From assembly GCF_002836775.1 (NCBI RefSeq), contig NZ_PJAQ01000043.1:123350-187349 (forward strand): DNA of 64,000 nt, given 5' to 3'. The notes beneath the pieces are model-generated. The model had not been told where the DNA came from and made no database searches. It saw nothing but the letters and a program-made list of their open reading frames with translations. The position numbers and the translations under genes are program-made. The stretch is from Colwellia sp. 12G3. Its GTDB lineage: Bacteria; Pseudomonadota; Gammaproteobacteria; Enterobacterales; Alteromonadaceae. This document shows, piece by piece, positions 45,758 through 61,413 of this stretch (its first letter is position 1; the number at the start of each line of letters is the position of its first letter).

Positions 45758-46033
45758 ATGATCAAATTTCCCAGTGACTTAACAATTGCTCAAGTAGACG
45801 AGTATCAAGCTCAAATTATTCCGCTAATAGATGAACAAGATGTGATAACCATCGATGACAGTGAGTTAGCACGCATCGATACTATTGGTGTGCAATTTAT
45901 CCTTGCAGTTGTTACCTATATTATTGCCCAAGGTAAAGAAATTAAGTGGCAATCAAAATCAAGCGTCCTAAAAGAAAGCATTCAACAACTTGGCATCAGT
46001 GATGCCATTTTATTGCAATACATCATGGATTGA
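45758..46033 (+). CDS. STAS-domain protein (first gene of chemosensory cluster)
   Basis: The 91-residue STAS domain has IDDSELARIDTIGVQFILAVV. The position often holding a phosphorylatable serine in anti-sigma antagonists is threonine here (Thr42 in RIDTIG). It resembles the small STAS proteins often encoded before cheY-cheA in alternative chemosensory operons. It might still be a phosphorylation target or only a scaffold. cheY follows after 69 bp. Confidence 0.82.
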   Translation: MIKFPSDLTIAQVDEYQAQIIPLIDEQDVITIDDSELARIDTIGVQFILAVVTYIIAQGKEIKWQSKSSVLKESIQQLGISDAILLQYIMD

Positions 46034-46102
46034 AGGCTTTGCCTTTCATAAGAAAATGTAAATATCCAGAACTTCGAAGCATTAAACTATGAGGAAAACC
46101 GT

Positions 46103-46465
46103 ATGACTAAAGTGTTAGTTGTTGATGACTCAAACTCAATAAGAGACATGGTCAGTTTTACCCTAAAAAGTGCCGGTTACCAAACCGTCGAAGCTAAAGA
46201 TGGTCAAGATGGTTTAAGTAAAGCGCAAACCAGTGATTTTGATTTAGTTATTTCAGATGTAAATATGCCAAATATGGACGGTATCAGTTTATGTTCTGAG
46301 CTACGAAAGTTGGCTAACTTTAAATTCACCCCTATTTTGATGTTAACCACAGAAAGCTCTACCGATATGAAAATGCGCGGTAAATCGGCTGGCGCAACTG
46401 GCTGGTTGGTTAAGCCGTTTAATCCAGAAAAATTATTAGCCACCATTAAACGCGTGGTTAAGTGA
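46103..46465 (+). CDS. cheY: Chemotaxis response regulator CheY
   Basis: The 120-residue single REC domain has the acidic pair Asp8-Asp9, phospho-acceptor Asp52 in VISDVNMPNMDG, Thr in MLTTESS and Lys in WLVKPFNPEKL. There is no output domain, so it acts by protein contact. The PNMDG and MKMRGKSAGATGWLVKPF segments are typical of CheY proteins encoded beside cheA in such clusters. Its target (motor or other) cannot be told. Confidence 0.94.
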   Translation: MTKVLVVDDSNSIRDMVSFTLKSAGYQTVEAKDGQDGLSKAQTSDFDLVISDVNMPNMDGISLCSELRKLANFKFTPILMLTTESSTDMKMRGKSAGATGWLVKPFNPEKLLATIKRVVK

Positions 46466-46513
46466 CATTGCTAGCATCAATTTCTGTTCAATCGTTATAG
46501 TACATCTATCGAA

Positions 46514-46556
46514 CTTATCTTAGGTACTTCTAGTACAAGTACTTAGTCGAGATAAG
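46514..46556. repeat. Inverted repeat between cheY and cheA
   Basis: CTTATCT-(TAG)-GTACTT pairs with AAGTAC-(TTAGTCG)-AGATAAG around a short loop. It lies in the 129-bp gap. No T-run follows, so it may be an RNA-processing or stability element that sets the cheY:cheA ratio (inference). Confidence 0.45.
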
Positions 46557-46594
46557 GTCCCTGATTTTGACAAGGAAAGAGTAGGTAATCAGTT

Positions 46595-48721
46595 ATGAGT
46601 GTTGATTTATCACAATTTATTCCAAGCTTTTTAGAAGAAAGCTTTGAAGGGCTCGAGTTGATGGAGTCTGGACTATTAAATTTAAAACCGGGTGACAATG
46701 AAACAATTCACTCAATATTTAGAGCAGCTCACTCAATTAAAGGCGGGGCAGGTACATTTGGTTTTGATAGTGTTACCGAGTTTACTCATTTAGTTGAAAC
46801 CTTACTCGATGAAATGCGAGATGGCCGACGAGAAGTAAGCAGCGCAGATACCGAGATTTTACTTGAATCCGTCGATTGCATGCGTTTATTAATTGAAGCA
46901 GCTCGAGACGAACAAGATTATGACCATGATAAAGTATCGACAACCTCCGCACGATTATCTGAAACATTAGGTGGACAACAGTCAACTGACAGTGATAGTG
47001 AAAATGAAAGCAATGTGAATAAGAATGATGGCTGTGGTTACAACATCAAATTTATTCCAGAGCATAGTTTAGCTAAAACAGGCAACGATCCCATCTTCCT
47101 TTTTAGTGCATTAGCCGAATTGGGTGAGTTAACCATTTCCGCTAACACTGAAGAATTACCTGCGTTGATGGATATTGATGCACAAGAGCTCTATTTTAGT
47201 TGGGAATTAACACTTATCACAACGGCTGAAGAAGCAGAAGTCATAGAAATCTTTGAATGGGTGGAAGATGAATGCTTATTAGAATTAGAGCCCATAGTAA
47301 ATAAAGCAAATGAAGAGCCGACTAATAACATCTCAGATGTTGCAGACGGAGTAATTAATGAATTATCAGTAGAGAGTTCACTGGGCGAAATAGAAAATCA
47401 AGAGGTACTTGCTAGTACTAAAGTAGACAATGAACCAGAGACTGCTACGGGTGAAAAAAGTAAAACCTCCAAAACTAAGGCAAAAGCAGATTTAGGTTCA
47501 ATTCGCGTTGGTGTAGATAAAGTTGATAGTTTAATTAATTTAATGGGTGAGTTAGTTATCACCCAATCTATGCTATCGGAGTTAGGTAATGATTTTGATA
47601 TGTCAAAAGTTGAACGCCTTACCAGTGGTCTTGAGCAACTATTACAAAACACAAAAGAAATGCAAGAAAGTGTTATGCGTATCCGTATGCTGCCAATCAG
47701 TTTTGCTTTTAATCGATTCCCTCGACTAGTGCATGACTTAGCCATAAAAACGGGTAAGACAATGGAGTTAGTGATCAGCGGTGAACAAACCGAGCTAGAT
47801 AAAACGGTGATGGAACAAATAGGTGATCCGTTGGTACATCTGGTGAGAAATGCTGCTGACCATGGCATTGAATCTAAAGACGTAAGACTTGCTAATGGAA
47901 AACCTGAGAAAGGAACCATTTCATTAGATGCATATCATCAAGGTGGAAATATCGTCATTGAAATTAAGGATGATGGCGCAGGAATTAATAGACAAACTGT
48001 ATTAGATAAAGCAATTGATAAAGGTCTTATAGACGCAAATGCTATCTTAACAGATAGCCAGGTATATGATTTATTATTTGAACCGGGCTTTTCTACCGCA
48101 GCAGAAGTGACTGATATATCCGGCCGTGGTGTTGGTATGGATGTAGTCAAACGTAACATTCAAGCATTAGGAGGCAGAATTCAAGTTGAATCAGTCTTAG
48201 GTAAAGGTAGTACTTTCAAAGTAAACCTACCATTAACACTAGCTATATTAGACGGTCAATTAGTCAAAGTGGGCACTGAAACATACATCATTCCACTGAT
48301 TTCAATTGTTGAATCATTACAAATTGATAATCAGCTCATTAATCGTGTATCTGGCGATATGGTTCTTTATCGATTACGTGATGACAATGTACCCGTATTA
48401 CCTATATATCAAATGTTTAATTTAGAGACAGAATGTACCGAAATAGATAAAGCCTTATTGGTTGTGGTAGAAGGCGATGGCCAAAAAGTCGGTTTGATGG
48501 TTGATGATTTACTTGCTCAACAACAAGTTGTAATAAAGAGCTTAAATGATAATTATCAACAGGTTTCTGGTATATCTGGGGCTACAATTCTCGGGGATGG
48601 CTCTGTTGCAATGATATTAGATATACCCGGTATTATTAATATGGCCTTAGAGCAAGCTCAAAAAATCCAGCGGGTTAGAACTGATGGAAATAGTAATGTA
48701 GCTGCGGAGGTCTGTTTATGA
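46595..48721 (+). CDS. cheA: Chemotaxis histidine kinase CheA
   Basis: The 708-residue kinase has an N-terminal Hpt domain (phospho-acceptor His46 in AAHSIKGGAGTFGF), a linker domain at about 145-235, and an acidic linker. The dimerisation domain (IRVGVDKVDSLINLMGELVI) follows, then the HATPase with N-box HLVRNAADHGIES and G-box GRGVGMDVVKRN, and a C-terminal CheW-like coupling domain (LAILDGQLVKVG). It overlaps cheW by the ATGA junction. It phosphorylates CheY and CheB in this cluster. Confidence 0.96.
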   Translation: MSVDLSQFIPSFLEESFEGLELMESGLLNLKPGDNETIHSIFRAAHSIKGGAGTFGFDSVTEFTHLVETLLDEMRDGRREVSSADTEILLESVDCMRLLIEAARDEQDYDHDKVSTTSARLSETLGGQQSTDSDSENESNVNKNDGCGYNIKFIPEHSLAKTGNDPIFLFSALAELGELTISANTEELPALMDIDAQELYFSWELTLITTAEEAEVIEIFEWVEDECLLELEPIVNKANEEPTNNISDVADGVINELSVESSLGEIENQEVLASTKVDNEPETATGEKSKTSKTKAKADLGSIRVGVDKVDSLINLMGELVITQSMLSELGNDFDMSKVERLTSGLEQLLQNTKEMQESVMRIRMLPISFAFNRFPRLVHDLAIKTGKTMELVISGEQTELDKTVMEQIGDPLVHLVRNAADHGIESKDVRLANGKPEKGTISLDAYHQGGNIVIEIKDDGAGINRQTVLDKAIDKGLIDANAILTDSQVYDLLFEPGFSTAAEVTDISGRGVGMDVVKRNIQALGGRIQVESVLGKGSTFKVNLPLTLAILDGQLVKVGTETYIIPLISIVESLQIDNQLINRVSGDMVLYRLRDDNVPVLPIYQMFNLETECTEIDKALLVVVEGDGQKVGLMVDDLLAQQQVVIKSLNDNYQQVSGISGATILGDGSVAMILDIPGIINMALEQAQKIQRVRTDGNSNVAAEVCL

Positions 48722-49245
48722 ATATACAAGCTATGGCACAAGATGTTCCTGTTGAAGGAGAGCACACTGTTGAAGGTATTGACTTTATTACCAGTGGTGA
48801 TCAATACCTAACGTTTCTATTAGCACAAGAACAATACGCTGTTGATATTTTGTGTGTTGAAGAGATCAGAAGTTGGGAGCAACCAACAAAAATACCCAAT
48901 GCGCCAAGTTATATAAAAGGTGTGATTAATATGAGGGGAATTATCGTACCTATCGTTGATTTACGCCTTAAATTTAACATTGGTAAAGCTAATTACTTAG
49001 AAACAACAGTTGTCATCGTACTTACTTATCAAAGTGAAGAAAAATCACGGACTATCGGCTTTGTGGTTGATGCTGTTTCTGATGTGCTCAATGTTGAAAG
49101 TGTTGATATAAAACCAGCACCTGCATTTGGTGGCTGTGTCGGGCAACAATATATTGATGGTTTAATCAATAGTGAAAATAAGGTAGTAACAGTGCTAAAT
49201 GTTGCTCATTTACAGCAAGTAGAAAAGCATAGGTTGCAAGGTTGA
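48718..49245 (+). CDS. cheW: Chemotaxis coupling protein CheW (first copy)
   Basis: The 175-residue CheW domain has YLTFLLAQEQYAVDILCVEEIR, ApSYIKGVINMRGIIVPIVDLR-type residues and VDAVSDVLNV. It couples receptors to CheA. The start overlaps the cheA stop by four bases, implying translational coupling. About 25 extra residues precede the core domain. A second, different CheW follows directly, so the array could contain mixed couplers. Confidence 0.94.
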   Translation: MNIQAMAQDVPVEGEHTVEGIDFITSGDQYLTFLLAQEQYAVDILCVEEIRSWEQPTKIPNAPSYIKGVINMRGIIVPIVDLRLKFNIGKANYLETTVVIVLTYQSEEKSRTIGFVVDAVSDVLNVESVDIKPAPAFGGCVGQQYIDGLINSENKVVTVLNVAHLQQVEKHRLQG

Positions 49246-49309
49246 TGCTTATTCTCGGTTATTTAAAACGATAAGTAATAACTAAACTATTTTGTTTAAA
49301 GGAAAGATC

Positions 49310-49861
49310 ATGGCAGATATAGAACAAGAATATCTCACTTTCATTCTGCAAGGAGAAGAGTATGGCGTTGACATACTCTGTGTTCAAGAAATTCGAGTTT
49401 GGAGCTCTGTAACTGAACTGCCAAATAAACCAGATTACATCAAAGGGGTAATTAACCTTCGAGGTGTCATTATACCTATCATTGATTTACGTCTACGGTT
49501 TGGTCAACCAGCCCTTGATTATAATGAGCAGACAGTCACTATTATATTACGCCAACAATCTAAATCTAGCAGCATGGTGGTTGGTATTGTAGTCGATGCT
49601 GTTTCAGAAGTTTACAAGTTTACTAGCCAATCCATACGTAAAGCACCTGCTTTTGGAAGTAATATTGATGGTTGTTTTTTAAAGGGACTAGCCTCGGTAG
49701 AAGAAAAATTGATTATATTACTTGATAGCGACTCACTATTAAGCGAAGACGACTTATATCGCACTGTACAACATAGTGCAGAAAGTGCAGATCAGGAGAA
49801 TGATAATTTGGAGAGTAATTCTGATTTAACCAGGGACGCACCCTCCTTATCTAGCGCTTAA
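49310..49861 (+). CDS. cheW: Chemotaxis coupling protein CheW (second copy)
   Basis: The 183-residue CheW has YLTFILQGEEYGVDILCVQEIR, KPDYIKGVINLRGVIIPIID and VDAVSEVYKF. Start at ATG 49310 with AAAGGAAAG upstream; a longer frame would add six unrelated residues. It has an acidic C-terminal tail (about 25 residues) not seen in the first CheW. It is followed by a dispersed repeat and then the globin receptor gene, which may be its specific receptor. Confidence 0.94.
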   Translation: MADIEQEYLTFILQGEEYGVDILCVQEIRVWSSVTELPNKPDYIKGVINLRGVIIPIIDLRLRFGQPALDYNEQTVTIILRQQSKSSSMVVGIVVDAVSEVYKFTSQSIRKAPAFGSNIDGCFLKGLASVEEKLIILLDSDSLLSEDDLYRTVQHSAESADQENDNLESNSDLTRDAPSLSSA

Positions 49862-49903
49862 TTAACTATTCAAGACTTGGCAGTATCGAACACCGAGCTA
49901 TGT

Positions 49904-50168
49904 ATACCCGTTCCACTTGAAGATGAATGATTCAGCTGGAATTAGAAACGCCTTTAGGCAAGGCATTGATTGAAGAGAATAGTTATTCTATTGTCGAAAT
50001 CAATAACGCAGCATAAAGCGTTTATAAACCAGCCCTTTGGGGAAGACTGAGCAAATAATACTCGTCGTTACATTTGTTTTTAAGGGAATGACCCTTAATA
50101 AAAAAATGTGCCTTGATTATGAATCGCTCAGACTTCCTGAAACGAGCATCTTCAAGTGGAATGGGTAT
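49904..50168. repeat. Dispersed TIR element, copy C (265 bp, ATACCCG subtype)
   Basis: Left end ATACCCGTTCCACTTGAAG; right end, read inverted, ATACCCATTCCACTTGAAG, with 21 of 22 terminal bases matching. TA dinucleotides flank both ends. The core shares GGCAAGGCATTGATTGAAGA and CCCTTTGGG with copies A and B, although their ends differ. ATACCAATCTATTGATT, like an end of the other subtype, directly abuts the right end. No ORF. Confidence 0.85.
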
Positions 50169-50212
50169 ATACCAATCTATTGATTATAAATAACTAAACA
50201 GGAAAATAACTT

Positions 50213-53200
50213 ATGACACCCAATCAAATAAGTTTAGTGCAAACAAGTTGGCAGAAAGTATTACCCATCGCGCCACAAGCCGCAGAAATATTTTATACCA
50301 CTTTGTTTGAAATGGATCCTTCATTAAAAGCACTATTTCCTAATGATATTGCCGAGCAAGGCAAAAAATTAATGGCGATGTTAGACACAGCCGTAAAGTT
50401 ACTTGATAACCCCGATAAGTTAATTCCTGCAGTGCAAAATTTAGGGGCTAAGCACCTTAAGTATGGTGCGGAGCCAGAACATTACGATACGGTTGGAGCA
50501 GCGTTACTGAAAACGTTAGCACAAGGTCTCGGTGATGACTTTACCGCCCCGACAAAGAAGGCTTGGACAGCAGTATACCAAACCCTAGCATCTACTATGA
50601 TAGCTGCAGCAAATGAAGCAGCATCAACTCAGTCAGCAAAAGGACCTACCATGAAGAAGAATACTGTAGAAGATGAGCAGAACAATGAGTTAACCTCACA
50701 ATTTAAGGGGGCACTAGAACAATCTGCTACGGCATTTATGATGATAGATAGAGATTTTAATGTCACTTATGCGAATCAAGCGACGTTGTCATTATTAAAG
50801 AAACATGAAGTCACTTTCTCCGAAAACTGGCCGGGCTTTACAGCAGACAAGGAGGCTATACTTTCAGCAAATATTGATAGTTTTCATAAAAAACCTAGTC
50901 ACCAAAGAGAATTATTATCAGACCCAAGTAACTTACCCTATAAAACAGACATAAGTATTAAACACCTTGTTTTTGAGCTTAATGTGAGTGCTATAATGGA
51001 TGCTACTGGCGAATACATTGGTAATGCCCTTGAATGGCAAGATGTGACGGAGGCTAGAGCGCAAGAAAACCAAACAGTGCAGTTACAAGGTGCCATAGAC
51101 CAATCAGGTACTGCTAATATTATGATCGATAGAGATTTTAATATTACCTATGCTAATGCCGCCACTTTAGCTTTACTGAAAGAACATGAAGCAACTTTTG
51201 CCGATAATTGGCCTGGTTTTAAAGCAGATCCTGAAATTATTATTGGCACCAATATTGACAGTTTCCATAAAAATCCAAGTCACCAGCGCAAATTGTTAAG
51301 TGATCCAAGTAACTTACCTTATAAAACCGATATTCAAATTAAGCACTTATCCTTTGAACTAAATGTTACCGCTATTACTGATGCTGCTGGCGAATACATT
51401 GGTAATGCCCTTGAATGGCAAGATGTGACTCAGGCTAGAGCGCAAGAAAACCAAACAGTGCAGTTACAAGGTGCCATAGACCAATCAGGTACTGCTAATA
51501 TTATGATCGATAGAGATTTTAATATTACCTATGCTAATGCCGCCACTTTAGCTTTACTGAAAGAACATGAAGCAACTTTTGCCGATAATTGGCCTGGTTT
51601 TAAAGCAGATCCTGAAATTATTATTGGCACCAATATTGACAGTTTCCATAAAAATCCAAGTCACCAGCGCAAATTGTTAAGTGATCCAAGTAACTTACCT
51701 TATAAAACCGATATTCAAATTAAGCACTTATCCTTTGAACTAAATGTTACCGCTATTACTGATGCTGCTGGCGAATACATTGGTAATGCCCTCGAATGGC
51801 AAGATGTGACTCAGGCTAGAGCGCAAGAAAATAAAGCAGTGCAACTACAAGGTGCCATTGATCAATCGGCAACTGCAAGTATCATGATAGATAGAGACTT
51901 TGTTATCACTTATGCCAATGCAGCAACTCTAGCGCTATTAAAAGAGCATGAAGCAACCTTTGCTGATAATTGGCCAGGTTTTACCGCCGATGAGGAAGTC
52001 ATTATCGGTACTAACATTGATAGCTTCCATAAAAATCCAAGCCATCAACGCAAGTTATTATCAGATCCAAATAATTTACCGTACACAACGGATATTCAAA
52101 TTAAACATTTAAGTTTTCAACTTAATGTTACCGCAATTTTAAATGCTTCAGGGGAATATATTGGTAATGCACTGGAGTGGCAGGATGTCACCTCTGCTCG
52201 TGCTAAATCGATTGAAGTTGGTCGATTGACTTCTACCATTGAAGGCATGACAACAAATGTAATGATGGCAGATACTAAGGGTAATATAGTGTATGCCAAC
52301 CCATCAGTTAAAACCATGTTACGTCGCCGTGAAGCGAAACTGCGTACTGCTTTACCATCGTTTAGCGTTGATACTATGGTAGGTACTAATTTTGATACCT
52401 TCCATAAGAATCCCGCTCATCAACAAAACTTATTGGGTAACCCTGATAATCTCCCATACACCACCGAAATATCTGTTGTTGGTCTCACTTTCCAGCTTAT
52501 CGCCATCGCCCTGAGAGATGAAGAAGGTAGTCATGTTGGAACGGCTGTTCAATGGGTTGATTTGACCGAAGAAAGAGATGCACAAGGTCAAATCGATCGC
52601 TTAATTACGGATGCAATCGCCGGTAAATTAGACAGTCGTATTGAAACTGCTGAATATGAAGGCTTTATGAAAGAGCTAGGTGATAATATTAATAACTTGA
52701 TGAATTCAATCGTTGAACCCATTAATGATGCAATAAATATTGCTCAGGCGTTAGCTGATGGCGACTTAACCCAGAGTATGAGCAGTGAGTATGGTGGTGA
52801 GTTCCTTGCACTTGCTAATGCTATGAACGGCTCAATTGAAAATTTAAGTAATATGGTCGAGGAAATTCGTAACGCTTCTACTAATGTCTTTGATTCAGCA
52901 CGTGAAATAGCATCAGGTAATAATGAGCTAAGTCATCGCACTGAATCACAAGCTTCAAGTTTAGAAGAAACCGCCTCTGCCATGGAAGAATTAACCAGTA
53001 CTGTTCAGCAAAATGCTGAGAACACCACTGAGGCAAGTAAGTTAGCTAACTCAGTTATGGAAAAAGCCAGTAACGGTGGAGCAGTGGTTCGAAATGCTAT
53101 TACTGCGATGAGTGATATTAATAAATCGAGTAAGAAAATTGCTGACATTATCAGTGTGATTGATGAAATTGCCTTTCAAACCAACTTACTTGCTTTAAAC

Positions 53201-53797
53201 GCTGCGGTTGAAGCGGCTAGAGCTGGAGAACAAGGACGAGGATTTGCCGTAGTTGCCGCGGAAGTACGAAACTTAGCGCAACGCTCTGCCGGTGCAGCTA
53301 AAGAAATTAAAGGTCTAATTAACGACAGTGTTGAAGCGGTAGGTCAAGGCACTAAATTAGTTGATGAAACGGGGCAAACATTTAGTGAGCTTGTTACTGC
53401 GATTGAAGATGTGAGTAAAATGATTGCAGATATTGACAGTGCAGGTAAAGAACAGTCTGCAGGGATTGGCGAGGTGAGTGCTGCAGTGAGTCAAATGGAT
53501 GAAATGACTCAACAGAATGCCGCATTAGTTGAAGAGGCCGCTGCATCAAGTAAATCGATGGAAGAACAATCACAGTCACTATTAGATCAAGTTTCCTTTT
53601 TCAATAATGGTGAAACAGCCCAACAACCTGAACCCGTACAACGCCAAAATAGAAACAACTCTAGGCAAGAAGCACCAACACAACAAAGAAGACAAGCAGC
53701 ACCAGCTGGCAGGCAATCAAATGTAAAAGCACAGAGGCCAACTCGAGTAGCTAAACGCCCTAGTACAGCTGTTGACCAAGAGTGGGAAGAGTTCTAA
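50213..53797 (+). CDS. Soluble globin-5xPAS methyl-accepting chemoreceptor
   Basis: The 1194-residue cytoplasmic receptor has no transmembrane segment. Residues 1-135 are a globin (proximal histidine candidate His81 in LGAKHLKYG, then [14 protein letters not shown]). Five PAS modules of about 127 residues follow (near 168, 295, 422, 549 and 676), the second and third nearly identical. After them come a HAMP-like region (about 797-890), the signalling hairpin tip [20 protein letters not shown] near 985, and a flexible Gln/Arg-rich tail. The tail ends in EWEEF, an xWxxF tether for CheR/CheB. A HemAT-like O2 or NO taxis sensor is the likely role. The PAS ligand is unknown. Confidence 0.92.
51054..51815 (+). 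repeat. Tandem 381-bp duplication encoding two PAS modules
   Basis: The units at about 51054-51434 and 51435-51815 are almost identical at DNA level (for example CTTGAATGG versus CTCGAATGG), including synonymous sites. The PAS modules before and after are clearly diverged. The period of 381 bp equals 127 codons, so the frame is kept. This indicates a recent in-frame duplication. Confidence 0.92.
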
Positions 53798-53861
53798 CGT
53801 GACAGTAAATTTATCGCTTTAACGTTGAATGATAGACTTAAGATAAAGGAGAAAAGTTAGG

Positions 53862-54770
53862 ATGGCTGAGCTAACGGGCAATAGTAATAAAAAGCAAGGT
53901 CACCCTCAAGATCGTGGATTAGATCGAGATCAGTCTATGAGACTGTCAGATGATGATTTTAAATTCATCTGTCAGTTTGTATACGAAAGCACAGGTATTG
54001 TTCTCAATGATAGTAAAAGAGAGATGTTATACCGACGATTAACACGCATTATTAGAGACCGAAAATTAAATTCATTTTCACAATATTGTCAGTTGTTAAG
54101 AAAACAAGGAGAGCAAGAAAAAGATTTTTTTATTAATGCGATAACCACTAATTTAACGAGTTTTTTTCGGGAGAATCATCACTTTGAATATTTAACAACA
54201 GAAGAAATTCCAGCATTAATAAAGAGCAAGACGGCAGGTTCTAATGGTAAAAAGCGTTTAAGGGTTTGGTCTTCAGCAAGTTCAACAGGAGAAGAGCCGT
54301 ATAGTATTGGCATTACGCTACTTGAAGCCTTGAAAAATGACTTACCTTCATGGGATGTAAAGATTCTAGCAACGGACATTGATAGTGATGTGTTGGCTAA
54401 GGGGAAAGCTGGCGTTTATGATGTTAATCGTATTGAAGACATTCCTAAAAACCTTAAACAAAGCTATTTTTTTCAAGGATGTGGGAAAAGTAGTCAAAGT
54501 GTCAAAGTACATGAGAAACTACAACGTATTATAACTTTTAAGCAACTAAATCTATTACATGATTGGCCGATGAAAGGACCATTCGATGCAATATTTTGTC
54601 GAAATGTCATTATCTATTTTGACAAAAAAACTCAACACGATTTGTTTGCACGTTACTTTGATATGCTCGCACCAGGAGGATTACTTTTTCTTGGCCATAG
54701 TGAGAACCTAGGTAATTACCAGCAATATTTTAGTAATGTTGGTAGAACCATTTTTAGAAAACCGTACTAG
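53862..54770 (+). CDS. cheR: Chemotaxis protein methyltransferase CheR
   Basis: S-adenosylmethionine-dependent methyltransferase that methylates receptor glutamates. The 302-residue protein has a helical N-domain (DDFKFICQFVYESTGIVL), the SAM site RVWSSASSTGEEPYSIGITL, ILATDIDSDVLAKGKAGVY, and FDAIFCRNVIIYFDKKTQ. It lies directly after the receptor gene carrying the xWxxF tail. The beta-subdomain that binds this tail lies around the ATDIDSD to CRNV region. About 30 extra residues precede the core. Confidence 0.95.
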   Translation: MAELTGNSNKKQGHPQDRGLDRDQSMRLSDDDFKFICQFVYESTGIVLNDSKREMLYRRLTRIIRDRKLNSFSQYCQLLRKQGEQEKDFFINAITTNLTSFFRENHHFEYLTTEEIPALIKSKTAGSNGKKRLRVWSSASSTGEEPYSIGITLLEALKNDLPSWDVKILATDIDSDVLAKGKAGVYDVNRIEDIPKNLKQSYFFQGCGKSSQSVKVHEKLQRIITFKQLNLLHDWPMKGPFDAIFCRNVIIYFDKKTQHDLFARYFDMLAPGGLLFLGHSENLGNYQQYFSNVGRTIFRKPY

Positions 54771-54802
54771 GTTATGAATACCATATTAGTGGAGGATATT
54801 TT

Positions 54803-55462
54803 GTGCTAAGACATGACCACCCTCAATTGTCTCAATATATGGAGCAGTGCTTACCAGAGTTTAAAAAAGTTAATCATTATTGGGATAGGCAAAGGGATAT
54901 GGTGGTTGCTAAAATTTTACCTGGTGAATTTTATATGACAACTAAGAATGTCGCTATCGCCACTACGTTAGGCTCATGTATTTCAGCGTGTATCTGGGAT
55001 GATCATAGTCACATTGGTGGTATGAATCATTTTATGTTACCGATCACCAATAAAGAGGCGCACGAAGTTAATTGGGGCCAAAGAGATAAAACAGCTGATG
55101 CTACCCGTTATGGCAATTTTGCAATGGAACATCTAATTAATATTATTTTAAGATCAGGAGGTAGAAGAGGAAATTTAAAAGCCAAGTTATTCGGTGGTGC
55201 TAAAGTACTTAATCAAATGTCTGATGTAGGACAAAAAAATATTGATTTTGCTTTAGCTTATTTGGAGGAAGAAGAAATCGTTATTGAAAGTAGTGATATT
55301 GGTGATTTATTTCCCAGAAAAGTGATTTTTGAACCCCGAACTGGCCGTGCTTATATCAAGCGACTCGATAATCTGCATAATGACACTATTATCCGACGTG
55401 AAAATGATTACAGCAGTGAGATTTATAAAAAAGAGGTTAGTGGCGATGTCGAAATATTTTAG
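54803..55462 (+). CDS. cheD: Chemoreceptor glutamine deamidase CheD
   Basis: The 219-residue CheD has the catalytic cysteine in TTLGSCISACIWD and histidine in GGMNHFMLP, then NLKAKLFGGAKVL and IGDLFPRKVIFEPRTGRAYIKRL. It deamidates receptor glutamines and in some species binds a CheC phosphatase; no cheC gene is seen here. GTG start at 54803 with GGAGG seven bases upstream. It lies between cheR and cheB. Confidence 0.94.
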   Translation: MLRHDHPQLSQYMEQCLPEFKKVNHYWDRQRDMVVAKILPGEFYMTTKNVAIATTLGSCISACIWDDHSHIGGMNHFMLPITNKEAHEVNWGQRDKTADATRYGNFAMEHLINIILRSGGRRGNLKAKLFGGAKVLNQMSDVGQKNIDFALAYLEEEEIVIESSDIGDLFPRKVIFEPRTGRAYIKRLDNLHNDTIIRRENDYSSEIYKKEVSGDVEIF

Positions 55463-55503
55463 TAACCTCAGTTATCGTTACCTAAGTAATGGAGTCAAAT
55501 AAC

Positions 55504-56619
55504 ATGGATATGATTAAAGTACTTATAGTTGATGATTCTTCCGTTATTCGTAGCATAATTAAAGAAGCACTCAGTCATTGCAATCATATAGAAGTTGTTG
55601 GCGAGGCAGAAGACCCTTTGGTTGCACGTGATCTTATTAAAAAATTAAATCCTGATGTATTAACCCTTGATGTAGAAATGCCCAAAATGGATGGTATTAC
55701 TTTTCTTATTAATCTTATGCGTTTACGGCCGATGGCAGTCATTATGCTTTCGACATTAACGACTAAAGGCGCTGATATCACGTTACAGGCCCTGGAAATT
55801 GGTGCGTTGGATTTCATTGCTAAGCCAACAGTACAAGAGTTAATGGCTACTCAAGACAGCTTTAAGGAAGTATTGATCGAAAAAATCACTCAAGCAGTGA
55901 CCATTGATCAGAAGAATTTCAAATTATCAGATACCTTAGCAAATAATAAAGCAAGCAACGATCTTAGCAATGTCTTATCTTTCAAGGGGGTGAAACGTGC
56001 AAATCACCTCGTCGCACTTGGTGCATCAACAGGTGGAACGGAAGCAATAAAAAAACTTTTGGTCACTCTGCCAAGTAATTCGCCAGCCATTGTTATTACT
56101 CAGCATATCCCTAAAACATTTAGCTTACGCTTTGCTCAACGTTTGAATGACATTTGTCAAGTTGAAGTACATGAGGCGACTCATGGTCAAAAAATTAAAA
56201 CTGGGCATGTTTATATTGCACCCGGAGATAAGCATTTAGAAGTAGTCCATAAAAATGGGGCATTGTTTTGTACTTTAAGTGACGGTGAGGAAGTTAATCG
56301 TCATAAACCGGCAGTGGATGTATTGTTTGATTCGGTCAGAAATTTAGCTGATAACGTGCAAGCAGTACTCTTAACTGGCATGGGACAAGATGGAGCTCAG
56401 GGAATGTTACGATTAAAAGTACTCGGAGCCAGAACTCTTATTCAAGATAAAAGTTCTAGTCTCATTTGGGGAATGCCAGGAAGAGCACATGCTCTTTCTG
56501 CCCACACAATGGAGTCACCTTTATCAGACATTGCGAAGCATATACTTGATTATGCGGCTTTAGATCGAGCGCAAATGCAGGGAGTTTTAGCTAAAAGTGC
56601 TGTAGGAAGACCTTTATGA
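55504..56619 (+). CDS. cheB: Protein-glutamate methylesterase CheB
   Basis: The 371-residue protein has an N-terminal REC domain (phospho-acceptor Asp56 in TLDVEMPKMDG) and a C-terminal methylesterase with the triad Ser175 in GASTGGTEA, His in ITQHIP, and Asp in GMGQDGAQGM. The start at 55504 was preferred over 55489 because GGAG at 55491-55494 then serves as ribosome-binding site, leaving MDMIKVLIVDD. The next gene overlaps by ATGA. Confidence 0.94.
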   Translation: MDMIKVLIVDDSSVIRSIIKEALSHCNHIEVVGEAEDPLVARDLIKKLNPDVLTLDVEMPKMDGITFLINLMRLRPMAVIMLSTLTTKGADITLQALEIGALDFIAKPTVQELMATQDSFKEVLIEKITQAVTIDQKNFKLSDTLANNKASNDLSNVLSFKGVKRANHLVALGASTGGTEAIKKLLVTLPSNSPAIVITQHIPKTFSLRFAQRLNDICQVEVHEATHGQKIKTGHVYIAPGDKHLEVVHKNGALFCTLSDGEEVNRHKPAVDVLFDSVRNLADNVQAVLLTGMGQDGAQGMLRLKVLGARTLIQDKSSSLIWGMPGRAHALSAHTMESPLSDIAKHILDYAALDRAQMQGVLAKSAVGRPL

Positions 56620-57806
56620 GACATATAACAAAGGGACTGTATTTATCGTGCACGCTAACCTTGTTGATATGGATTAATGACTTATTTCTTCATGAAAAAT
56701 CGCTATTTGTGCTTTTATTTTCTACTTTATTTATTTTATTGATAGTGTTAACAAGTCAAGCACACAAGGATACTGTCGTAAAAAATGTGGATGAAAATGT
56801 GGAAGCAATGCCTGTAGTTGACGATGAATTAATCCACAGTGTTATTTTCGAGTTACAGCAATTTATTCACCAAGAAATAAATATTGTTGAAAAAGAACTA
56901 CAACGTACGAAAGTGTTGGTAGCAGACGCGGTTACGGGCATATCTGAAAGCTTTAAACACTTACAAAATTTAAGTGAAGATCAGCAACAAATGATCCAAT
57001 TACTGATTTCTCATTCGGGCAACATGGAAGATGGTAAGGGAGGATCATTAGAAAGCTTTGTAACAGATTCCAATAAAACCCTTGATGATTTTGTTGGTGT
57101 CATTATTAATACCAGTAAGCAAAGCCTTGTAACCATGACATATACTGATGATATGGTGTCGCAATTTGACAGTATATTTAAATTATTGTCACAAGTTGAA
57201 GGCTTGGCGAGTCAAACTAATCTGTTGGCACTTAATGCGGCAATAGAAGCAGCCAGAGCAGGAGAAGCGGGACGGGGTTTTGCTGTTGTTGCTAATGAAG
57301 TACGTAGTTTGTCTGTTGGCTCAACAAAACTTAATGAAGATATCCGTACTGAAATTAATAACGCCAAAGCAATTATTGCTAAATTACGTGGGTCGGTTGA
57401 AACAATGGCCTCTGCTGATATGACCTCGACGTTAGAGGCAAAAGATAAAATGACTGTGATGATGAGCCATGTTGAGGATGTTAATAACCAAACAACTCGG
57501 AGTGTTGATGAACTTGCTATCATTGCACCTAAAATTACCGAGGCAGTAAATACAGGAGTACGTTCGTTACAGTTTGAAGATTTAACGCGGCAATCGCTAG
57601 AGTCATTGCAAATGAATGTCAGTAGCCTCCATGAAATAAGTGATGCACTAGCAACCTTTGTCAAAAACCCCAGTATAACTGTGCATCAACAATTAATTAC
57701 ACTTAAAACGACTTGTCAGCAAGTCTATTATAAGACTCAGCAATCAGAAGGTTCACGTAGTGTTAAGCAGCTAAACATGGATGAAGGTGAAATAGATTTA
57801 TTCTAA
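56616..57806 (+). CDS. Membrane receptor-like protein with MCP signalling tip and CheZ-type motif
   Basis: The 396-residue protein has two N-terminal hydrophobic helices (about residues 7-22 and 29-47) with almost no periplasmic loop, so it has no periplasmic sensor. No HAMP was seen. The MCP signalling tip is [20 protein letters not shown] near residues 195-215. Downstream, SLQFEDLTRQSLESL (Asp322 to Gln326) resembles the catalytic DxxxQ helix of the CheY phosphatase CheZ. The protein ends in EIDLF. No separate cheZ or cheC is present, so it may be a receptor-located CheY phosphatase. That is inference; the annotation by similarity is simply MCP. Confidence 0.8.
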   Translation: MRHITKGLYLSCTLTLLIWINDLFLHEKSLFVLLFSTLFILLIVLTSQAHKDTVVKNVDENVEAMPVVDDELIHSVIFELQQFIHQEINIVEKELQRTKVLVADAVTGISESFKHLQNLSEDQQQMIQLLISHSGNMEDGKGGSLESFVTDSNKTLDDFVGVIINTSKQSLVTMTYTDDMVSQFDSIFKLLSQVEGLASQTNLLALNAAIEAARAGEAGRGFAVVANEVRSLSVGSTKLNEDIRTEINNAKAIIAKLRGSVETMASADMTSTLEAKDKMTVMMSHVEDVNNQTTRSVDELAIIAPKITEAVNTGVRSLQFEDLTRQSLESLQMNVSSLHEISDALATFVKNPSITVHQQLITLKTTCQQVYYKTQQSEGSRSVKQLNMDEGEIDLF

Positions 57807-57840
57807 ACTTTTGAAATTTTAATATATAAGGAAGACACTT

Positions 57841-58146
57841 ATGACTATTAGCAGTAAACTTTCAGGAGATGGTAAAAAACTTGTCATTTCAATCGATGAG
57901 CGTTTTGATTTCTCCCTACATCAGCAATTTCGTGATGCATATACCAGTGTGATGACTCAAAATTTAACATACGTGGTGGATTTAAGCCAAACTGAATATA
58001 TGGATAGCTCGGCACTTGGTATGATTTTATTATTAAAAGACCATGTACAACATTATGCAGGGCAACTCATTATCTCTAAGCCGAGTGATACGGTAAGAAA
58101 AATATTAGAGATTGCTCAATTTCAACGCTTAATGACCATTGAATAG
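57841..58146 (+). CDS. STAS-domain anti-sigma-factor antagonist
   Basis: The 101-residue STAS protein has VVDLSQTEYMDSSALGMILLL, with the canonical phosphorylatable serine at 56 or 57. It resembles SpoIIAA/RsbV and the HsbA and CrsA proteins of Pseudomonas and Shewanella. The likely phosphatase/kinase partner is the 582-residue REC-PP2C-HATPase protein encoded next, now separated by dispersed element copy D. AAGGAAG precedes the ATG. Confidence 0.87.
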   Translation: MTISSKLSGDGKKLVISIDERFDFSLHQQFRDAYTSVMTQNLTYVVDLSQTEYMDSSALGMILLLKDHVQHYAGQLIISKPSDTVRKILEIAQFQRLMTIE

Positions 58147-58168
58147 CATTTTTATTGACGGGTTAACT

Positions 58169-58430
58169 ATACCCGTTACCAATCAAAGTGCAGGATTTCA
58201 GTGGGAATTAAAACCACTTTAGGCAAGGAAAATAATTTAAGCATAGTCATTCTATGGTTTGATTATTTAACGCCGTATAAAGTGATTTTAAACCCATCAA
58301 AGAAGCGCTTGAGCAACATCACTTCATCGTTGCTGTGACTTATAATGGAACAACCATTATTTCATCACAGCGCCTTGAATTGAAATTTCTCAAACACTTT
58401 GAAATCAGCATCTTGAATGGTAACGGGTAT
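58169..58430. repeat. Dispersed TIR element, copy D (262 bp, ATACCCG subtype)
   Basis: Left end TATACCCGTTACCAATCAAA; right end, read inverted, TATACCCGTTACCATTCAAG. Both ends lie at TA dinucleotides. The interior GGCAAGGAAAATAATTTAAG is a diverged version of the common core. It separates the STAS gene from its probable partner by 317 bp. Confidence 0.8.
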
Positions 58431-58463
58431 ATCGGTTTAACCTGTAGATTATAAGGACGATAT

Positions 58464-60212
58464 ATGTCTCAAAGCCAAAAACTTGCACTTGTTGTTGATG
58501 ATTCTAAAATGCAATGTAAATTGTTGTCGGTACTGCTGGAAGAAGAAAATTACCGTGTAGTCGTTGCAAATGATGGGGCAAGTGGTGTGAAAATGTACAT
58601 TGAACACCAACCTGATCTTGTATTAATGGATATTAATATGCCCATCATGGATGGCTTTGAAGCAACCAGAAGAATTAAGAAGTTTTCGGGCGTAGGTAAC
58701 CTCGCACCCATTATTTTTATCACCAGTATGGATAGTGAACAAGCTTTTATTGAAAGTGTTGATGCAGGAGGGGATAGTATTTTAGTACGACCTTTTACGC
58801 CGAATGTTTTTAAAGCAAAAATCAAATCGATGCAAAGAATAAGTGATTTAGTCGAACAGGTGAAAGGCCTGCAGCAAGAGCAGCAAAATGATGCAAAGCT
58901 AGCTGAAAAAATGATGTCGAATGTAATTGAAGCAAGAAATTTTGCTTTAGATAAAATTGGCGTAATTAAAAAGCCCGCTACCATTTTTAGTGGCGATATC
59001 CAATTGAGTGCGTTGTGTCCAAATGGTGATCTTCATGTATTACTTGGCGATTTTACTGGTCATGGTTTACGCTCTTCAATTGGTGCTATTCCGGTTACTG
59101 AAACGTTTAGAGCGATGACTAAAAAAGGCTTCTCCATATTAGAGATTATCGCTCAATTAAACCGACAAATGTATACCTTACTTCCTGGTGATTTATTCTT
59201 TGCAGCAAGTTTTGCTAGTATTTCAGAACATGAAAAGTCCGCTTATATCTTCAATGCAGGCCTACCGGATGGCTACCTATTTAATGAAGAAGCAAAAATT
59301 ATACAACAGTTTGCCTCAACACACCCACCGCTAGGAATATTACCGCAACTTTTACCTGATGCTCAACTAGAAGTAGTTCAAGTTAAGAGTGATGACCGAA
59401 TAGTGTTCATTACCGATGGAATAGTTGAAGCAAGAAATCAACCGGGAGAGCTTTTTGGTTTTCCGCGTTTTGAAAATGCAGCGATAGAAGGTATAAAACA
59501 AAATAATTTAATTAGTAGTGTGCTCAGAGAGCTTGATGATTTTTGTCAGCATTGTGAACAAGAGGATGATATTTCTTTAGTCGACATACCCTGCAGTGGC
59601 TGGAAAAAGATTGAAGTCACTAGTAAGGTTTTAATACCTGAAGGTTTTAATGAAGACGATAATTACTTTGGTATCCCACAAAGTACCTTACCAACCTGGT
59701 CTTATCATTTACACTTAACAGGTAAATTATTAAAGACAGTTAACCCCATTCCTTTAGTCATGAGTCAAATTAATGATTTAGAAGGTGCTGGCGAACACTG
59801 GCAAAGCTTATATACTATATTAACCGAACTCTTTATTAATGCGCTTGACCACGGAGTTTTGGAATTAAATTCATCGCTAAAAGACTCAGCGGAAGGTTTC
59901 AGTCAATATTTTAATGAGCGGGCAAAGCGGTTGGCTAAACTCGCTGATAATATCATTAATGCACCGGATAATTTTGTTAGAATTTCACTGGAATATTTTC
60001 CACTGTCACATGGAGGAAAAATGGTTATCAACATTAAAGATAGTGGCCAAGGTTTTGAAGTAGTAGATGTTATAAAAGATAACAGCATTGCAATGAAAGA
60101 CGGTTTAAAATTAAGTGGCCGAGGAGTCGAATTAGTCAACCAGCTCTGTGATACCTTAGAATATCAAGATAAAGGTACTCGAGTGACAGCAAGTTATATT
60201 TGGCATGTTTAA
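58464..60212 (+). CDS. Response regulator with PP2C phosphatase and HATPase domains (HsbR/CrsR-like)
   Basis: The 582-residue protein has an N-terminal REC domain (Asp56 in LVLMDINMPIMDG), then a coiled linker. A SpoIIE/RsbU-type PP2C domain follows (about 170-375; FSGDIQLSALC, LLGDFTGHGLRSS, FITDGIVEA). A C-terminal GHKL ATPase (about 440-580) has N-box LFINALDHGVLEL and SGRGVELVNQL. This is the architecture of HsbR (Pseudomonas) and CrsR (Shewanella), which both dephosphorylate and phosphorylate an STAS partner to steer an anti-sigma or c-di-GMP pathway. The upstream STAS gene is the natural substrate. Confidence 0.88.
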   Translation: MSQSQKLALVVDDSKMQCKLLSVLLEEENYRVVVANDGASGVKMYIEHQPDLVLMDINMPIMDGFEATRRIKKFSGVGNLAPIIFITSMDSEQAFIESVDAGGDSILVRPFTPNVFKAKIKSMQRISDLVEQVKGLQQEQQNDAKLAEKMMSNVIEARNFALDKIGVIKKPATIFSGDIQLSALCPNGDLHVLLGDFTGHGLRSSIGAIPVTETFRAMTKKGFSILEIIAQLNRQMYTLLPGDLFFAASFASISEHEKSAYIFNAGLPDGYLFNEEAKIIQQFASTHPPLGILPQLLPDAQLEVVQVKSDDRIVFITDGIVEARNQPGELFGFPRFENAAIEGIKQNNLISSVLRELDDFCQHCEQEDDISLVDIPCSGWKKIEVTSKVLIPEGFNEDDNYFGIPQSTLPTWSYHLHLTGKLLKTVNPIPLVMSQINDLEGAGEHWQSLYTILTELFINALDHGVLELNSSLKDSAEGFSQYFNERAKRLAKLADNIINAPDNFVRISLEYFPLSHGGKMVINIKDSGQGFEVVDVIKDNSIAMKDGLKLSGRGVELVNQLCDTLEYQDKGTRVTASYIWHV

Positions 60213-60246: not shown

Positions 60247-61413
60247 ATGATAAAACACAATTTATTGATTATTGATGATGACATTGACTACCTAAACTTA
60301 TTGGCAGAAAGTTTAGAGGATACTTTCGAGGTGAAATGTGCGAGTAACTTATCGGCTGCAGAGGATTTGCTGCGAGAAGATATTCACTTTGATATAGCGT
60401 TGATTGATGAGCATATAGGAAATGAAAAAGGCTCTATCTGGATAAAAGAGCAGCAGAGCAATGAAAACTCTCCTACTTCATTTGTTTTGTATTCTGGCAT
60501 GGCCACAGAAGAAGCGCTATTGAAAGGCTTAGAATGTGGTGCAGATGACTTTTTAGCAAAGCCATTCTCGTTATTAACGCTCCATTCAAAACTTGATAAA
60601 CTCATCGATTATCAAGATAAAATTCATGATTTTGAAGATGAAATAAAATCTAAAAATAACGTGATCAATGTCTCAATGGCGCAGGCTTCTAAATATGGAA
60701 GCTGTATGCAATTGACATCAAAACTCAATCATTGTTTTACCTACGAGCAAATTCGCGATGAAGTGTTTTCCTATTTCCACAGCATGGACTTACATGGTTG
60801 TATTGCATTTTACCCCATCGATGATAAGCCCAGATTTTATAGTGCTCAAAAAGGTGTTTGCTCCCCGGTAGAAATTGAAGTGATGGAGTTATTGAAAGTA
60901 AAACCTCGTCTATACCGTTTTGGTTCAAGAACCATTTTTAACCATGCGCTAGTCTCTTTATTTATACTAAACTTAGAAGAAGGCACCGTTGATACTGATA
61001 TATATATTGATGCCTTAGCGTCAGTTATTGAATGTATTGGCGCTAGAATGGCTTTTATTACGTATAAAAATTCTTTGGTGTGTGTTCAAGAGCAAATAAA
61101 GCAAGCGGTGGGTTCCACTAAAAAAATGGTTGAGATATCTAAGCATCATCAACAAGAAGTAATGAATGAAATAGTGCAAAAAATGGGTACTAGCTTTCAC
61201 ATTTTAGATATGTCACAAGAACAAGAAGACTACCTAACAGATATGGTGCATGGAGCACTTAAAAAACACAGCCAAGATGATATTAATTTTCTAGAAGTTA
61301 CTCAGTTACTTGATCAAGCGCTTAACAGTGTAGAGCAACTCCAACAGTTAAATACCGAAAATGACGAAGTTGATAATACTTATGATATTGATGATGAGGA
61401 TGAACTATTTTGA
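60247..61413 (+). CDS. Response regulator with uncharacterised C-terminal region
   Basis: The 388-residue protein has an N-terminal REC domain (Asp54 in IALIDEHIG, Lys in FLAKPFSLLTL). The region after residue 125 is not recognised: a helical linker, a possible GAF-like alpha/beta part at about 165-285 (CIAFYPIDDKPRFYSAQKG), then helices and a very acidic tail ending DEDELF. The next gene starts with a TTG that overlaps its TGA stop. It is likely a target of the downstream hybrid kinase. Confidence 0.78.
   Translation: MIKHNLLIIDDDIDYLNLLAESLEDTFEVKCASNLSAAEDLLREDIHFDIALIDEHIGNEKGSIWIKEQQSNENSPTSFVLYSGMATEEALLKGLECGADDFLAKPFSLLTLHSKLDKLIDYQDKIHDFEDEIKSKNNVINVSMAQASKYGSCMQLTSKLNHCFTYEQIRDEVFSYFHSMDLHGCIAFYPIDDKPRFYSAQKGVCSPVEIEVMELLKVKPRLYRFGSRTIFNHALVSLFILNLEEGTVDTDIYIDALASVIECIGARMAFITYKNSLVCVQEQIKQAVGSTKKMVEISKHHQQEVMNEIVQKMGTSFHILDMSQEQEDYLTDMVHGALKKHSQDDINFLEVTQLLDQALNSVEQLQQLNTENDEVDNTYDIDDEDELF

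Follow-up and report, generated by a model that had tools for sequence, protein, structure and literature searches.

How is the signal of a CheA-CheY pathway ended when its gene cluster provides a cheY and no cheZ, and what might a receptor-like protein of the same cluster do that has no sensor domain? Both questions are raised by a stretch of 64,000 nucleotides from Colwellia sp. 12G3 (assembly GCF_002836775.1, contig NZ_PJAQ01000043.1, positions 123,350 to 187,349 of the forward strand; hereafter the window), in which a chemosensory cluster extends from 45758 to 60212. The gene in question, 56616..57806 on the + strand, lies between cheB and the STAS and SpoIIE genes, where the published order of stage 1 F7 systems places an McpA-like receptor (Ortega et al. 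2020, PMC7184735). An earlier note, made from the sequence alone, had seen a CheZ-type motif in its product and had proposed an MCP-CheZ hybrid which places a CheY phosphatase at the array. Following up this proposal, which we find partly supported, we arrive at a probability of roughly 0.7 that the protein works as a phosphatase of the CheZ type. Its substrate would be a phosphorylated CheY-like receiver, with the CheY of the same cluster (46103-46465) as the likeliest one, and its scaffold that of a receptor which has lost sensing and adaptation. The receptor-like protein is probably an off-switch enzyme and not a sensor.

Architecture of the McpA-like protein

The reading frame opens with an ATG lying across the stop of cheB (4 bases of overlap) and is translated into 396 amino acids, followed by a stop; the C-terminal end reads EGEIDLF, which bears out the EIDLF of the earlier note. 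A Pfam scan recognised the MCP signalling domain PF00015 (E 2.5e-24, residues 176-312); at E <= 1 it gave no HAMP, no sensor domain and no CheZ. The membrane anchor (56637..56765) consists of a weak hydrophobic segment at about residues 8-24, the limits of which were set by eye, and a strong one at about residues 27-50, with 17-residue windows above the hydropathy cut-off of 1.6 starting at residues 27-34. The first segment stays below this cut-off, and two membrane helices, as formerly claimed, are plausible; there is almost nothing between the segments, hence the other part of that claim stands, as no periplasmic domain finds space here. The anchor is followed by an N-terminal helix region (residues 70-175, 56823..57140) with highly conserved F113 and Q123 and by the MCP signalling tip (residues 201-226, 57216..57293), which is missing from natural tip-less homologues. 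A relative from Colwellia sp. 75C3 is 88% identical over the protein.

The motif LQFEDLTRQ occupies residues 318-326 (57567..57593) of the returning helix, with Q319 at 57570-57572, D322 at 57579-57581 and Q326 at 57591-57593, and the numbering of the longer SLQFEDLTRQ (residues 317-326) is confirmed by invariant alignment columns. Asp and Gln are thus four residues apart on the returning helix, as are Asp143 and Gln147 of CheZ. In CheZ catalysis, Asp143 orients CheY-P and Gln147 places the attacking water. The protein ends in an acidic-hydrophobic tail, MDEGEIDLF (residues 388-396, 57777..57803), the last residue of which, F396, is invariant.

Conservation and coupling of motif and tail

A first family profile was built from the last 115 residues, so that the motif is included. 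In the genomes sampled, it found matches in 94 of 369 for the class and in 100 of 398 for the phylum. Among 17 members, the positions invariant after the signalling tip include L318, Q319, D322, Q326, G391 and F396. In an alignment of 85 members, one of them tip-less, Q319, D322, Q326 and F396 are identical throughout (85/85), and L318, F320 and G391 are each kept in 80; at most positions between residues 280 and 350 the commonest residue accounts for less than 60%. The alignment leaves out L034, which has FEDLTRQ and is 99.5% identical to L035, and L146, then taken as a truncated copy and later recognised as tip-less. The worry that Asp322 and Gln326 might not be conserved among homologues can be laid to rest.

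As a check for circularity, a profile of the N-terminal helix alone was searched, yielding 97 matches in 86 of the 369 genomes, of which 93 coincide with matches of the C-terminal profile (the motifs of these were read at the loci retrieved). Of the four remaining matches of this profile, L248 has a complete motif and tail, L247 departs from the motif at one position and lacks the tail (see below), and in L246 (205 aa) tip and motif are both missing. The fourth, L249, is a long receptor that looks HAMP-type in architecture by eye and ends in WEDF; we take it as outside the family. The L248 protein (2418-3722, - strand) carries two tandem tail-like ends at its C-terminus, DQGDIDLF and then NKESVELF.

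Motif and tail go together. With (LMIV)QFxDxxxQ as motif pattern and (IVL)x(LF)F as tail pattern, 170 receptor frames with a tip matching its pattern (168 once two near-copies are removed) divide into 88 with both, 78 with neither and four with one only. The two tail-only frames (L015, L018) retain the D and Q and have lost F320, and the two motif-only frames (L063, L191) have slightly divergent C-terminal ends. Fisher's exact p for this table, 2e-43, is descriptive, because the sequences are related and not independent and the loci were picked for the family. The position of the motif is likewise nearly fixed, 100 residues past the tip pattern in 87 of the 90 frames that have it and 102 in the other three. 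A chance motif is ruled out by the 85/85 conservation, the coupling to the tail and the N-helix search.

Likeness to CheZ

An alignment of 1KMI (E. coli CheZ) to the CheZ of the host genome fixed the positions of Asp143 and Gln147. When the profile of the McpA motif helix was compared with 24 CheZ sequences, both aligned over 66 columns without a gap, with D322 on Asp143 and Q326 on Gln147, at a probability of 78.7% (E 1.7e-5 for a single comparison); two other cuts of the McpA alignment gave 67.3% and 55.6%. The control profiles gave 1.2% for the N-helix and 4.8% for the tip, and the corresponding region from 75 ordinary receptors gave 3.1%, in a different register. For 13 sequences of a sister group, whose motif is LQFQDRxxQ, the probability was 89.6%, and 24% in an unchanged register after masking of the motif. 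Searched through whole genomes, the Pfam CheZ model returned 22 rows below its cut-off, the best with E 3.4e-6; 12 of these were read, and ten contain the motif, mostly of the LQFQDR kind (L122, L176-L182, L184, L187), and two do not (L183, L207). Direct matches, both far below cut-off, were obtained for L190 with the Pfam CheZ model (E 8e-4) and for L202 with the NCBIfam CheZ model (E 0.026). The motif helix is CheZ-like, and common descent with CheZ is possible.

A CheZ domain fused to an MCP is not what we find here. The profile PF04344 is not matched, and therefore the protein is not assigned to the CheZ family. It is an MCP hairpin whose returning helix bears a CheZ-type active-site pattern, which corrects the hybrid of the earlier note, and it belongs to a family already known as the orphan McpA-like receptors.

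The orientation of the motif was estimated from the spacing at which hydrophobic residues recur along the returning helix. With a coiled-coil angle, positions 314, 321 and 328 face the core; the angles are 165 degrees for both Q319 and Q326, -144 for L323, 114 for D322 and -92 for F320, so that all five residues are estimated to point outward or to sit on the flank. An ideal-helix angle gives a hydrophobic moment of 17 versus 43 and places Q319 at 119 and Q326 at 99 degrees. By the coiled-coil phase it is thus less likely that the helix hides these residues.

The tail also has its counterpart. The host-genome CheZ ends in DDVDDLLSSLGF and the host-genome FliM begins near DEIDALL, to be compared with EGEIDLF. 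CheZ and FliM peptides bind CheY, and by sequence comparison the conserved McpA-like tail is similar in make-up to the CheY-binding peptide of CheZ. The likeness to CheZ noted before holds insofar as the tail is acidic-hydrophobic and conserved, but it is not peculiar to these two proteins, since the same pattern ends 36 of 59 CheD frames in related loci (SGDVELF and similar). It is absent from all frames labelled CheA, CheB, CheR, CheW, CheY, STAS2 or SpoIIE in the same loci. A tail common to McpA-like proteins and CheD suggests a shared docking partner, which is perhaps CheY-P. The tail was also considered as a CheR pentapeptide, x-[HFYW]-x2-[HFYW]; its second place is Ile and not aromatic.

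Loss of sensing features and of the tip

No methylation consensus occurs across the protein, and the neighbouring Aer2-like receptor has three. None of the 90 motif-bearing receptors has a site within 120 residues from the tip; of 76 receptors at these loci that lack the motif pattern, 66 have one. The 76 include the variant members L015 and L018, both without consensus, and four further motif-less receptors with short flanks were set aside. Over the whole frame the consensus was found in two of 128 family frames. The motif itself could be imagined to be a methylation site and not an active site, and it fails the consensus used. Measured as a sensing receptor, the protein has the signalling domain and lacks the other defining features tested (sensor domain, HAMP and methylation consensus). 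Because of these absences, and because of tip-less relatives, the view that it is not a ligand sensor has gained in strength.

Ten proteins without an MCP tip retain both motif and tail, and nine of them lie near che genes. One of them, L146, comes from the same genus (G006) and sits between cheB and STAS in a complete F7 cluster; it has 183 aa, its ATG overlaps the cheB stop just as in the gene studied here, and it is about 61% identical to residues 60-129 plus 293-396 of our protein. L133 and L202, from one genus, follow cheB; for L199, L293 and L294 the next labelled frames are cheY and cheA; L198, with the motif FQFYDRMSQ, and L200 lie within che clusters; and L196 adjoins a frame of cheY type. 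Within the 15 kb of L197 there is no che gene, and L201, the frame of which is cut by the contig end, is excluded from the count. For the ten, Pfam gave no MCPsignal match and nothing else above cut-off, and the six of them scanned against NCBIfam likewise gave nothing above cut-off. Intermediate forms exist as well, namely frames of 330-370 aa that fail the tip pattern (L285-L290), among them L285, which has no hydrophobic start and an altered tip, NARIVAARAG, still matching PF00015, together with motif and tail. A neighbouring paralogue (L291, L292) has neither motif nor tail.

Three frames of 579-620 aa in or near che clusters (L295, L296, L300) have Qx(A/V)GDxxxQ-like motifs and end in ALF or ELF; they are possibly a further related group.

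Proposed mechanism

On these grounds the following course may be envisaged. The protein would form a membrane-anchored long antiparallel MCP hairpin, the tip of which, present in the sequence, could join a CheA/CheW array; for the orthologue in Shewanella, association with the F6 array has been published (PMC9855816). Gln319, Phe320, Asp322, Leu323 and Gln326 would be displayed by the returning helix at its outer side or next to it, an orientation that is estimated for residues whose conservation is observed, and Asp322 would orient CheY-P and Gln326 position the attacking water by the chemistry of Asp143 and Gln147 in CheZ. After a linker, the tail GE(I/V)(D/E)LF would capture CheY as the CheZ tail does, as we infer from their likeness. 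In this way a CheA-CheY pathway that has no cheZ of its own would have its signal ended, perhaps at an array.

Genomic context and alternative explanations

The neighbourhood was counted for 90 family frames flanked by 6 kb or more on either side. Of these, 68 have a cheY-type frame within 9 kb, 66 a cheA, 62 a cheB, 50 a cheD, 39 a STAS, 33 a SpoIIE and three a cheZ frame. At three loci (L281-L283) the order is McpA-cheY-cheA-cheW-aer2-cheR-cheD-cheB, with LQFQDMSSQ as motif and SAGEVELF as tail; the Che2 cluster of P. aeruginosa is arranged in this way. In a named Vibrio plasmid record (L302, 1.85 Mb), the gene between cheB and STAS codes for LQFTDIIVQ and EEGEVELF.

These figures bear on the best surviving alternative, according to which the same CheZ-type chemistry is directed at the receiver of the adjacent SpoIIE-type, CrsR-like protein (58464-60212), with a partner-switching stress output in place of CheY. 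Its attraction lies in proximity, as within 400 bases downstream a STAS frame starts for 38 and a SpoIIE frame for 22 of the 90 family frames, and the McpA-like, STAS and SpoIIE genes are described to have moved together and to have been lost together (PMC7184735). We nevertheless consider it improbable: SpoIIE is near in 33 of the 90 cases, versus 68 for cheY-type genes and 66 for cheA, and the loci L281-L283, those of LQFQDR type and the tip-less L199, L293 and L294 have cheY and cheA for neighbours and no SpoIIE label. Furthermore, in a genome of the same genus (G005, L025; 3.2 kb seen) cheW and cheB remnants are merged and the McpA-like gene has decayed, with STAS open and SpoIIE open to the end of the locus. 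This pattern hints that the McpA-like protein is tied to the Che part and not to the SpoIIE part.

Another explanation, quite improbable in our view, sees in the protein a genuine chemoreceptor of an unusual class, signalling to the F6 array, with the motif as a non-catalytic docking or packing surface. The tip is intact, and McpAso of Shewanella clusters and forms complexes with CheA3, its overproduction raising swimming like that of other receptors (PMC9855816); CttP has been reported to act in chemotaxis to trichloroethylene (PMC7534058). However, a sensor domain, HAMP and the methylation consensus are all missing, motif and tail are retained in tip-less forms, and the invariant polar residues are at estimated outer positions. 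The occurrence of the family speaks in the same sense. CheZ was searched in 80 of the 88 family-bearing genomes first listed, and of six without it, five (G108, G239, G122, G173, G286) gave no match for CheZ, CheX or CheC; in three of these (G122, G173, G286) FliM was not matched either. Each of the three has a family member in the same cluster as a cheA. A role solely in the flagellar F6 array therefore does not explain the family there.

That the protein is an inactive CheZ-like decoy or sink, which binds CheY-P via motif and tail in order to sequester or position it and does not hydrolyse it, would agree equally well with the conservation of both elements and with the same tail in many CheD proteins, but is very improbable, as what is invariant is precisely an Asp and a Gln with the spacing of the CheZ catalytic pair, and the residues between them vary.

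Several observations weigh against a CheZ-type phosphatase acting on CheY. First, there are other candidates for the task: the host genome has a standard cheZ, which could act on this CheY, as well as two CheX/CheC-type genes; CheZ was found in 74 of the 80 family-bearing genomes examined, and the three loci with a cheZ close to a family member are L077, L079 and L293. Second, the published array partner is not the expected one. The Shewanella orthologue is placed in the F6 chemotaxis array and not in an F7 one, and its deletion left swimming unchanged (PMC9855816), which qualifies the earlier idea of a phosphatase at the array. Third, the sequence evidence has its limits. The family was first gathered with a motif-containing profile, and the N-helix control profile was seeded from members of that set; L247 has the D and Q but Glu for Gln319, and no tail, so that Q319 is not absolute; PF04344 does not match even at E <= 1; and with the motif letters masked the match between the McpA and CheZ profiles is lost (0.7%), so that descent of the McpA subfamily from CheZ is not established. 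Finally, the ideal-helix angle, though its fit is weaker, puts D322 nearer to the core, at 59 degrees from the hydrophobic face, and an AlphaFold model from five close sequences (shallow alignment) reached a pLDDT of 50, too poor to judge a CheZ-like four-helix bundle.

The F7 gene cluster and its neighbours

The cluster, of the ancestral type of F7 systems, lies on the + strand throughout and has the order given for stage 1 (PMC7184735). It starts with a STAS protein (45758..46033), followed by the stand-alone receiver cheY (46103..46465), our preferred candidate substrate, cheA (46595..48721), two cheW genes (48718..49245 and 49292..49861), the Aer2-like receptor (50213..53797), cheR (53862..54770), cheD (54803..55462) and cheB (55489..56619). 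Downstream of the McpA-like gene come a second STAS protein (57841..58146) and the protein with receiver, SpoIIE phosphatase and HATPase domains (58464..60212), whose receiver is the alternative candidate substrate. The tail of CheD, SGDVEIF (55439-55459), resembles the McpA-like tail. As stated in the earlier note, the cluster has a cheY and neither cheZ nor cheC; the single PF04344 match of the host genome and the two CheX/CheC-type genes lie on other contigs.

The Aer2-like receptor combines a globin domain at its start with several PAS repeats, some of them near-identical in sequence, HAMP and an MCP tip, and ends in EWEEF. Beyond the cluster, 60247-61413 codes for a receiver protein of 388 aa with no recognised output domain and an acidic tail with terminal Phe, DEDELF; all six frames labelled like it in related loci end in Phe.

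Comparison with known systems

If the phosphatase role is true, it would account for the missing off-switch of F7 systems and for the conserved tail, and also for the tip-less versions and the lack of features for sensing and methylation. Receptor counts and receptor-ligand screens would include enzymes which are not sensors. A wider idea is tentative and rather unlikely to hold as a whole: receptor-shaped CheY phosphatases would be a large overlooked class in Proteobacteria, ending signals in many chemosensory systems where no own cheZ is present; CheZ (and CheT) may go back to a receptor of this kind whose anchor and tip were lost, a change of which the tip-less genes give an example; and CheD with the same docking tail may compete for the partner.

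The family as such is known. Our protein shares with the McpA-like receptors CttP/PA0180, VCA1088/Mlp44 and SO_2117/McpAso the operon slot, an anchored MCP without sensor and a conserved C-terminus that is not a pentapeptide, and it is on operon slot and architecture that the kinship with PA0180, VCA1088 and SO_2117 rests. Such receptors are described as dispensable for the F7 array, as not assignable to a heptad class and as having a strikingly conserved C-terminus and no assigned role; in organisms with stage 1 and stage 2 systems, cheY is found in both the F6 and F7 clusters and cheZ with F6 only (PMC7184735). On VCA1088, according to a V. cholerae review, there are no experimental reports (PMC7534058). 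McpAso shares its transcript with the F7 genes, yet it clusters with CheA3, which belongs to the F6 system (PMC9855816). The difference is in the function considered, as the sections of PMC7184735 on this family treat its members as receptors, with no mention of a phosphatase motif. Among the papers listed, by titles and beginnings of abstracts and with subscription journals and preprints thinly covered, no report of a CheZ-like motif or a CheY phosphatase role for them was found. New here are the invariance of Gln319, Asp322, Gln326 and Phe396, the coupling of motif and tail, the lack of a methylation consensus in the motif-bearing receptors, the gap-free register with CheZ, the tip-less forms, and the five genomes with the family and no CheZ, CheX or CheC match.

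With E. coli CheZ (PDB 1KMI) the protein has in common FxDxTxQ on the returning helix of a hairpin, a linker and an acidic-hydrophobic tail with a final Phe; CheZ differs by having neither membrane anchor nor MCP tip, and the McpA-like protein by the absence of a PF04344 match. A third case, likened here by description, is CheT of Sinorhizobium meliloti, a divergent DXXXQ protein of a che operon which dephosphorylates a CheY; unlike the McpA-like protein, CheT is reported to bind CheR and has a predicted structure that is CheZ-like (PMC12654446).

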